This document shows positions 59,613-61,580 of a DNA stretch of 64,000 bases, one piece after another (the first letter of the stretch is position 1; every line of letters begins with the position of its first letter). Under the pieces are notes generated by a model. It was not told where the DNA came from. It was given only the letters and a program-made list of their open reading frames with translations, and did not search any database. A program made the translations under genes and the position numbers. The DNA comes from Mycobacterium sp. UM_CSW. GTDB taxonomy: Bacteria; Actinomycetota; Actinomycetes; Mycobacteriales; Mycobacteriaceae. Location: positions 33,647 through 97,646 of the forward strand of contig NZ_AUWQ01000034.1 in assembly GCF_000455205.1 (NCBI RefSeq), in the 5' to 3' direction.

Positions 59613-61497
59613 GTTTTGACTCGCCGGCCGGCAACAACGCCGTCTCCCACTTCTGCTTGCTGGACAGCACGGGCAGCGCCTCCCGGTAGACCCGGCGCAT
59701 CTCGTCGAACCGGCCCAGCAACTTGCGCTGGCGGCGTAGCGATTTCAGCAACAGCGACATCATCTTTCGCCGGTCGCGCTGCCGGTAGACCACGCCGCAC
59801 CCGTCGGCGGTCGTGACCGTCACGCCGTCGACCGTGCAGAGCCGGAACCAGCGCGCGTCCTGGGTCGGCACGTTGTACTCCGGACGCGTGTGGGCTTCCG
59901 GGTCGGCCGCTGTCATGTTGTGCAATATCCCGCGTGCCAGCCGGTAACTGATGGAAACGGGGTTCACCGGCGGCTTCATCGCCTTGGTCTTGTTCTGCGG
60001 CGGCGGCAGCTCGCTCGCGGCCGGCAGCACGACGGCGTCCGGGTACTCCTTGCGGATGCGGTGCACTTCCGGCAGCGCCGATTCCAGGATCGAGAAGATG
60101 TGCTCGGGACCGGCCAGAAAGTCGTCGATCGCCCTGTTCTGGATCGCGACCGTCGAGTATTCAAGGCAGGCAAGGTGTTTCAGCGTCGCCTTGAGGTGGC
60201 TGCGGACCAATCCGGTGATATCGCCGTCCCAGTGCAGCGCCGCGACCACCAACCGGTTGCGCAAGTGGAAATAGGCCTGCCAGTCGATGGCGTCGTCCTT
60301 GTCGCTCCAGGCCATGTGCCAGATCGCGGCCCCGGGCAAGGTGACCGTCGGATAGCCGTGCTCGCCGGCGCGCAGGCCGTATTCGGCGTCGTCCCATTTG
60401 ATGAACAACGGCACCGGCTGGCCGATCTCCTCGGCGACCTGCCGCGGGATCATGCACGTCCACCAGCCGTTGAAGTCGACGTCAATGCGCCGGTGCAGCA
60501 GCGCGCTCCGATCGTTGTTGTCGTTCAACGGGAATTGCGCGAAGTCGTGGTCGTACTCGGCGTGCGGCGCGGCGGTCCACATGAAGTTCGACTGGTTGAC
60601 GACCTCGCCCATGATGTGCAGGTGCGACGGCTCCTGCAGGTTGAGCATCTGACCGCCGATCAGCATCGGCGTCTTGGCGAAGCGGTTCAGCGCCAGCACC
60701 CGCAGGATGGTGTCCGGCTCGATGCGGATGTCGTCGTCCATGAACAGGATCTGTTGGCAGTCCGTGTTTTTCAGCGCCTCGTACATCACCCGGCTGTATC
60801 CGCCGGAACCGCCGAGGTTCGGCTGATTGTGGATCGACAACCGGTCGCCCAGGCCGGCGGCTGCGGCCGGAAAGTCCGGGTGGTCGCGCACCTTGCGGAC
60901 GCCCTGGTCCGGCACGATTACCGCCCCAATCACCTTGTCCACCAATGGATCTGCGGTGAGGTCGGCCAGTGCGTTGACACAGTCGGCGGGACGGTTGAAG
61001 GTGGGGATACCGACGGCGACGTTGGCGGTGCCCGGAGCGGGCTCGGTGGCGTACCACCCACCGCTGAGCAGGCTGACCGCCGTGTCGGTGGTGATGTCGA
61101 ACCAGATCCAGCCGCCGTCCTCGAACGGCCGCAGCGGCACCTCGATCTCGACGACCGCCGGCTGATCGTCGGTGCCGACGAACTGGCGGCCCTCCACCGA
61201 GATCCGGACCCCGGTGGCCTTGGTCCGGTACACGTCGACGCGTCCGGTTCCGGTCAGCTCGACCCGCAACACCACCGACGTGCAGATCGACCAGCGCCGC
61301 CAGTAGCTGGCCGGGAACGCGTTGAAGTACGTCGCGAACGACACCTCCGACTCAGCGCCGATCTGTAGCGAGGTGCGCGATGTCGCGTGCGCGCGCCGCG
61401 CGTTGGTGGTCGACTCCTCGAGGTAAAGCTTGCGCACGTCGAGGGGTTCGCCCGGACGCGGCAGGATGATTCGGGACAGCAGACTGACCGCGCTCAT
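59605..61497 (-). CDS. glfT2: Galactofuranosyltransferase GlfT2 (galactan polymerase)
   Basis: The 630-residue GT2 enzyme has an N-terminal beta-barrel at about 1-150, then a GT-A domain (VAVGIPTFNRPADCVNAL) with metal-binding DDD at 254-256 (FMDDDIRIEP), WDDAEYG acceptor Asp pair and HMAW. It polymerises alternating beta-5 and beta-6 galactofuranose as a homotetramer on the membrane. The start at 61497 ([17 protein letters not shown]) follows a small inserted element whose duplication repeats the first 13 bases of the gene. A GGGGAGGAG within the insert serves as ribosome-binding site. Confidence 0.95.
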   Translation of the reverse strand: MSAVSLLSRIILPRPGEPLDVRKLYLEESTTNARRAHATSRTSLQIGAESEVSFATYFNAFPASYWRRWSICTSVVLRVELTGTGRVDVYRTKATGVRISVEGRQFVGTDDQPAVVEIEVPLRPFEDGGWIWFDITTDTAVSLLSGGWYATEPAPGTANVAVGIPTFNRPADCVNALADLTADPLVDKVIGAVIVPDQGVRKVRDHPDFPAAAAGLGDRLSIHNQPNLGGSGGYSRVMYEALKNTDCQQILFMDDDIRIEPDTILRVLALNRFAKTPMLIGGQMLNLQEPSHLHIMGEVVNQSNFMWTAAPHAEYDHDFAQFPLNDNNDRSALLHRRIDVDFNGWWTCMIPRQVAEEIGQPVPLFIKWDDAEYGLRAGEHGYPTVTLPGAAIWHMAWSDKDDAIDWQAYFHLRNRLVVAALHWDGDITGLVRSHLKATLKHLACLEYSTVAIQNRAIDDFLAGPEHIFSILESALPEVHRIRKEYPDAVVLPAASELPPPQNKTKAMKPPVNPVSISYRLARGILHNMTAADPEAHTRPEYNVPTQDARWFRLCTVDGVTVTTADGCGVVYRQRDRRKMMSLLLKSLRRQRKLLGRFDEMRRVYREALPVLSSKQKWETALLPAGESKHG

Positions 61498-61580
61498 TTT
61501 GCGCCGCTCCTCCCCATCGCTTCGTCCCCCTCGCCGCTCCGCGGCTGGGGGTGCCCCCACTGCATCGTGACCGCGCTCAT
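61485..61580. repeat. About 83-bp inserted element flanked by 13-bp direct repeats at the glfT2 start
   Basis: TGACCGCGCTCAT occurs at 61485-61497 and again at 61568-61580. Between them is a GC-rich segment with CCCCATCGCTTCGTCCCCC and a CCGCTCCGCGGCTGGGGG palindrome-like part. From memory this type of segment recurs in mycobacterial intergenic regions. The direct repeats look like a target-site duplication. Confidence 0.72.
61494..61580 (-). CDS. 28-codon leader ORF created by the insertion, coupled to glfT2
   Basis: From the ATG at 61580 (overlapping the glf stop as ATGA) the frame reads [16 protein letters not shown] and ends at a TGA that overlaps the glfT2 ATG in a second ATGA. The first four codons equal the first four codons of glfT2. 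It is most likely the displaced original glfT2 start, kept as a translational bridge between glf and glfT2. A function for the peptide itself is not implied. Confidence 0.6.

Follow-up and report, generated by a model that had tools for sequence, protein, structure and literature searches.

What lies between glf and glfT2 in this mycobacterial genome, how did it come to be there, and what becomes of translation in a galactan operon that is held to be essential? We addressed these questions in a 64-kb window (the whole stretch of DNA that was analysed) and in a survey of the same junction across related genomes.

A 13-bp repeat flanks an insert between glf and glfT2

On the coding (minus) strand, the junction reads glf, ATGAGCGCGGTCA, a 70-bp insert, ATGAGCGCGGTCA and glfT2. 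The upstream ORF, presumably glf (UDP-galactopyranose mutase, 399 aa; 61577..62776), ends in a TGA that overlaps the ATG of the left copy of ATGAGCGCGGTCA (61568..61580), and the right copy (61485..61497) is an exact match to the first 13 bases of the gene that we take to be glfT2 (galactofuranosyltransferase; 59605..61497); both names follow an earlier note on this DNA. Read from the ATG at 61497, glfT2 encodes 630 aa within a longer ORF, and its relatives align over residues 1-630. An exact search of the plus strand of the window found TGACCGCGCTCAT exactly twice, at 61485 and 61568, with 70 bp between the copies and 83 bp from ATG to ATG. That an exact 13-bp repeat should arise by chance at two start codons spaced by 83 bp is, in our judgement, most unlikely. 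From the left ATG, a leader frame of 28 codons (28 aa; 61494..61580, minus strand) crosses the insert to a TGA that overlaps the glfT2 ATG, giving an ATGA overlap at each end. The earlier note had described the repeat, the overlap with the glf stop and the 28-codon frame in these terms, and the ORFs and the sequence agree with it on each point.

Two simple explanations of the segment were set aside: a known RNA family, as Rfam gave no match to E=1 within 61000-62000, and an unusual RNA fold, as the junction segment folds in an ordinary way (z -1.44; 19 of 200 shuffles equally good). Adjoining glf on the opposite strand, the window also contains a frame rich in PGLTS-type repeats (63021-64000, plus strand), which we take to resemble Erp, the exported repetitive protein.

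The insert belongs to a known family of mycobacterial repeats

Mycobacterial interspersed repetitive units (MIRUs; Supply et al. 1997, through PMC12548453, PMC4213456 and PMC2734929) are characterized in three papers: as units of 40-100 bp with scattered copies (PMC2734929); as apparently mobile, inserting at start codons and carrying an inner frame that is coupled to the gene at -4 nt (PMC12548453); and as first described at senX3-regX3, where M. leprae is named as a carrier (PMC4213456). The window insert resembles MIRUs in size and dispersal, in its start-codon site, in the -4 nt coupling of its inner frame (here 28 codons with ATGA at each end) and in sequence kinship with the senX3-regX3 element.

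A 301-base query taken from the junction found, elsewhere in the genomes of other members of the genus, matches confined to the insert at 87-97% identity. With the insert alone as query, 19 of 19 genomes matched at E<=1e-8, these genomes having been chosen since the 301-base search pointed to copies there. In the window's own genome, a short MIRU query gave 33 matches at 31 places, the window copy included (E<=0.01, with 40 of the 128 first-look candidates scored). The window copy matches the MIRU profile at E=2.7e-20, a value that is not independent, as the profile contains this copy. M. leprae served as the reference for kinship with published MIRUs. The junction of an M. leprae two-component pair, which we take from its proteins to be senX3-regX3, scores E=7.8e-6 against the short MIRU when the whole genome is searched as DNA, and E=2.8e-7 against a profile of 22 short copies from the window's genome when 7 kb is searched; that profile also matches the 3' part of the window MIRU at 5.8e-6. 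Across the M. leprae genome (G396), a threshold of E<=0.1 gave 33 matches to the short MIRU, and chance may account for the weakest among them.

Alignment A1, made up of 32 MIRU copies, relates the parts of the insert to the family. Most aligned copies run (A/G)TGAnn-CGCGCCGGCGA-CGATGCAG-block-AAGCGATGAGGAGGAGCGGCGC-nn-ATGA. In the window, copies elsewhere, the alignment and the profile match delimit a 70-bp MIRU body from CGATGCAG to GGCGCAAA (61498..61567, minus strand), which has the block TGGGGGCACCCCC...GAGGGGGACG that short-type MIRUs lack. Within the conserved 3' portion is GGGGAGGAG (61507..61515, minus strand), a Shine-Dalgarno-like stretch lying 9 nt 5' of the glfT2 ATG. The tandem loci of MIRU-VNTR are built from a unit of the same kind, whereas the window holds a single unit; we found tandem MIRUs in L126, L133 and L159.

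In one respect the window copy is unlike other MIRUs: most of these begin (A/G)TGAnn-GCGCCGGCGA, or near variants of it, where the window instead has the left copy of its exact 13-bp repeat. The usual ends GCGCCG...CGGCGC, a pattern observed here and not a defining one, are represented in the window by the right end alone, a glfT2-like copy standing in place of the left one; another junction, L054, has GCGCCA/TGGCGC. Since 23 of 60 copies have atypical ends, the missing left end does not exclude the window copy from the family. Judged by its sequence, the insert is a long-type MIRU at the glfT2 start codon, in the same sense as the operon, and we hold it very probable that it is a MIRU with run-through translation. 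A new class of element was rejected, as a MIRU fits; carriage by a plasmid or phage was likewise rejected, a 79-bp query finding no match at E<=1e-5 in a plasmid or a phage collection. The earlier note's view of a small inserted element thus holds, given many copies elsewhere and an empty junction in the nearest genome found, except that the element belongs to a known class and is not a one-off. Our literature search for a MIRU at glf/glfT2 found no paper.

MIRU copies tend to lie between stop and start codons and to have paired ends

The position of the insert is typical of its family. Among the 28 other copies in the window's genome, the 3' end coincides in 23 with the start codon of a frame 80 codons or longer (0.136 at random; reverse strand 1 of 28) and the 5' end with the stop of such a frame in 18 (0.047 at random; reverse strand 1 of 28), both together in 14. 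For 39 copies in other genomes, the corresponding counts are 22 for a start at the 3' end, 26 for a stop at the 5' end and 18 for both, with 3 and 7 on the reverse strand. MIRU copies therefore tend to sit with a stop codon 5' and a start codon 3'. Short-type copies carry a mini-frame of 18 codons, for example VTRAGDDAERSDEEERRQ. Reading by eye the 29 own-genome copies (30 loci, one without a hit; window included), we found in 13 a closed mini-frame, 15-29 codons long, whose stop lies at the 3' end; in the remaining copies the frame enters the next gene or is broken. Coupling is common among MIRU copies, not universal.

The flanks of MIRUs form a direct repeat, confined to a single register. 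Left and right flanks match in register 9 nt only (0.504 vs 0.377 when shuffled, z 6.4, 0 of 2000 shuffles), with no match signal in registers 4-8 and 10-12 for the same 41 of 67 copies; of the 26 that were dropped, 11 were removed by name as tandem or ill-fitting and 15 for atypical ends. Position by position, the excess lies at 4-8 (TGAnn), and positions 1-3 and 9 are not clear. A longest-common-word test of the flanks gave 5.37 vs 4.47 with three tandem copies included, and we prefer the register test, which is free of them. The window too has a flanking direct repeat around the start codon, at 13 bp longer than the family signal. Targets other than (A/G)TGA also occur, namely ATGGC, ATGTCG or ATGCC (L171, L182, L188, L189).

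The ends themselves form a short inverted repeat whose two sides tend to co-vary: in 60 of 67 copies the longest complementary run is 5.43, vs 5.00 when pairs are shuffled (0 of 400 shuffles), a figure which, like the flank statistics, is not fully independent, as some copies are perhaps orthologous. In the 23 copies with atypical ends, the run is 4.74 vs 4.21 (6 of 1000 shuffles), and several of these do not pair at all, for example L121, L135 and L138. Ends that are unusual yet paired were noticed in L117, L123, L143, L163, L185, L188 and L194, with such combinations as GTGTCG/CGACAC and GTCCCG/CGGGAC.

MIRUs come and go at the glf/glfT2 junction

To call a junction occupied, we used a pattern for the MIRU right end just before glfT2. 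By this measure 24 of 64 distinct junctions (74 panel rows) carry a MIRU and 40 do not, in a panel that is biased to occupied sites, 33 of the 73 other rows having come from queries that hold the element; of the 40 rows chosen by GlfT2 protein, 13 are occupied. The panel excludes 40 more distant GlfT2 loci and six repeat loci; one of the distant loci, L103, looks occupied by eye. With 40 of 64 junctions free of a MIRU, we rejected the possibility that the insert is ancestral sequence, and the alignment with other genomes bears out the earlier note in treating it as an addition. Junction MIRUs vary in length, and one junction (L159) has two in tandem. Immediately upstream of glfT2, the glf tails of L012 and L015, two junctions scored as empty, contain a stretch similar to CCTGCATCGTC; on the reverse strand it weakly matches the left end of the MIRU (E 0.87 and 0.51).

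In a tree built from the coding sequence that flanks the junction, the distribution requires a minimum of 17 changes between occupied and empty, 14 of which are forced by well-supported branches, and occupancy shows barely more clustering than shuffling of the labels produces (mean 19.6; 64 of 500 equally low). As reconstructed on this tree, MIRU turnover at glf/glfT2 is frequent.

The window junction may have been acquired by allele exchange

The nearest genome found (E796/G051, the two having identical panel rows) has an empty junction with a bare ATGA overlap, and the window genome and G051 are sisters (SH-aLRT 100). Between the window and E796, 93 of 735 aligned sites (13%) are different in a patch reaching from -118 to +700 of the glfT2 start (60797..61615, minus strand), against 34 of 1984 (2%) outside it. 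This patch is probably an allele exchange in the lineage of the window or of E796, and homologous exchange may have carried the occupied allele from one species to another.

One form of this explanation, compatible with the identity of the insert as a MIRU, is that the occupied junction was never inserted in the window genome and arrived by homologous recombination from an L054-like donor. Besides the excess of differences inside the patch in such close sisters, it draws on the finding that from -200 to +50 L054, a row placed in another part of the tree, is the nearest of the 73 others (90-93%). The fit is imperfect, however: at -200..-100, E796 is almost equal to L054 (91 vs 92%), from 0 to +200 the nearest row is E796 (94-95%), and over +200..+700 other species are closer than L054; the patch as a whole therefore cannot be traced to one donor. 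With one genome on each side, E796 could also be the recombinant, having received an empty allele. We put the chance of an L054-like donor at about even. Where the earlier note saw an insertion, the element may have reached the window genome inside a block of exchanged DNA instead of transposing there.

The 13-bp repeat is probably younger than the insertion

The earlier note had read the 13-bp repeat as a mark of insertion, which now seems doubtful: the excess in the family extends over only about five positions, and the same element occurs with an ordinary left end elsewhere. L054 (and L147, whose junction letters are identical) has nearly the same glf tail as the window, CACTCATGCAAGACGARGGGGCGAACGCATG, and the same element, with the left end ATGCGCGCCAACGACGATG and without the 13-bp repeat; its Glf continues through the element in the frame that the window uses as leader. 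An ordinary left end beside the same glf tail suggests that the element is older than the 13-bp repeat. We accordingly favour, with some confidence, a derived repeat in which the glfT2 start was copied over the MIRU left end after insertion. The usual left end could have been replaced in this way by a template switch, by short gene conversion or by a tandem expansion followed by contraction.

The alternative is a separate MIRU insertion in the window lineage with a 13-bp target-site duplication, the element having arrived without its first ~10 bases. It would explain why the two copies are identical, including third-codon bases that are absent from E796, and flanks of MIRUs do repeat directly (register 9, as above). 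At a further junction, L007, the left end agrees with the local glfT2 start in 11 of 13 positions and the spacing is unchanged, a pattern that would also fit a long target duplication; this likeness may be explicable by a resemblance between the ordinary MIRU left end and the glfT2 start. Against a 13-bp duplication, the family signal is clear only at positions 4-8 of 9, and L054 shares the glf tail and the element yet has an ordinary left end. We consider it unlikely, at perhaps one chance in a few, and prefer later copying of the glfT2 start into an element already in place.

Predicted translation continues through the element at most junctions

Most occupied junctions preserve a continuous path from glf to glfT2. 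A leader runs from the glf stop to the glfT2 start in 16 of the 24, and in five others (L010, L011, L041, L045, L054) Glf runs through the MIRU and acquires a MIRU-encoded C-terminal tail ending on the glfT2 start. The three exceptions are L022, with a 13-nt overlap with glfT2, L065, which reads in frame into GlfT2, and L159, where the first leader ends at the start of the second MIRU unit. Predicted unbroken translation is thus preserved in 21 of the 24 occupied junctions. The coupling on both sides that the earlier note proposed fits this picture, with the leader frame, the GGAGG inside the element and the same layout in other species.

The best evidence that the frame matters comes from the 19 unfused occupied junctions, in which 46-115 nt separate the glf stop from the glfT2 start. 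The real frame ends at -3..+8 of the glfT2 start in 16 of the 19, and the shifted frames do so in 0 and 1 of 19, the junctions being related and so not fully independent. This contrast points to a leader frame that is maintained, not accidental. The opposite reading, that a GC-rich insert happens to contain the frame and that this frame plays no translational role, is consistent with the ordinary RNA fold (z -1.44, with 19 of 200 shuffles equal), but so many junctions reaching the start in the real frame over such varied spans make it highly improbable.

We propose that a ribosome finishing glf would re-initiate at the overlapping left ATG, translate the 28-codon leader and re-initiate again at the glfT2 start, aided by the element's own GGAGG. 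Run-through translation of this kind would allow the element to be tolerated in the operon, and the leader peptide would need no function of its own.

Implications for MIRU biology

The element in the window is of a known kind. What is added here is a survey of one junction that documents frequent turnover, the keeping of predicted translation and a repeat that is probably secondary. To our knowledge, little is known of how MIRUs move and how they affect gene expression. MIRU-VNTR loci are commonly used for tuberculosis strain typing (PMC2734929). At the glf/glfT2 junction, nature provides pairs of sister species of which one has a MIRU in a cell-wall operon and the other lacks it, the frame being mostly kept, and such pairs make the old proposal that MIRUs are tolerated through run-through translation directly testable. 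The short terminal inverted repeats, whose sides tend to co-vary, together with the flanking repeats, give a handle on how MIRUs spread. More speculatively, and with a good deal less confidence than we have in the identity of the insert, glf/glfT2 in slow growers might be a hotspot of MIRU turnover, by insertion and by allele exchange, at which unbroken translation is rebuilt each time and the element would be an exchangeable part that sets the GlfT2:Glf ratio; the window would then be a case in which a host gene start was copied into the left end of the element, so that glf gained a separate stop and the leader a separate start.
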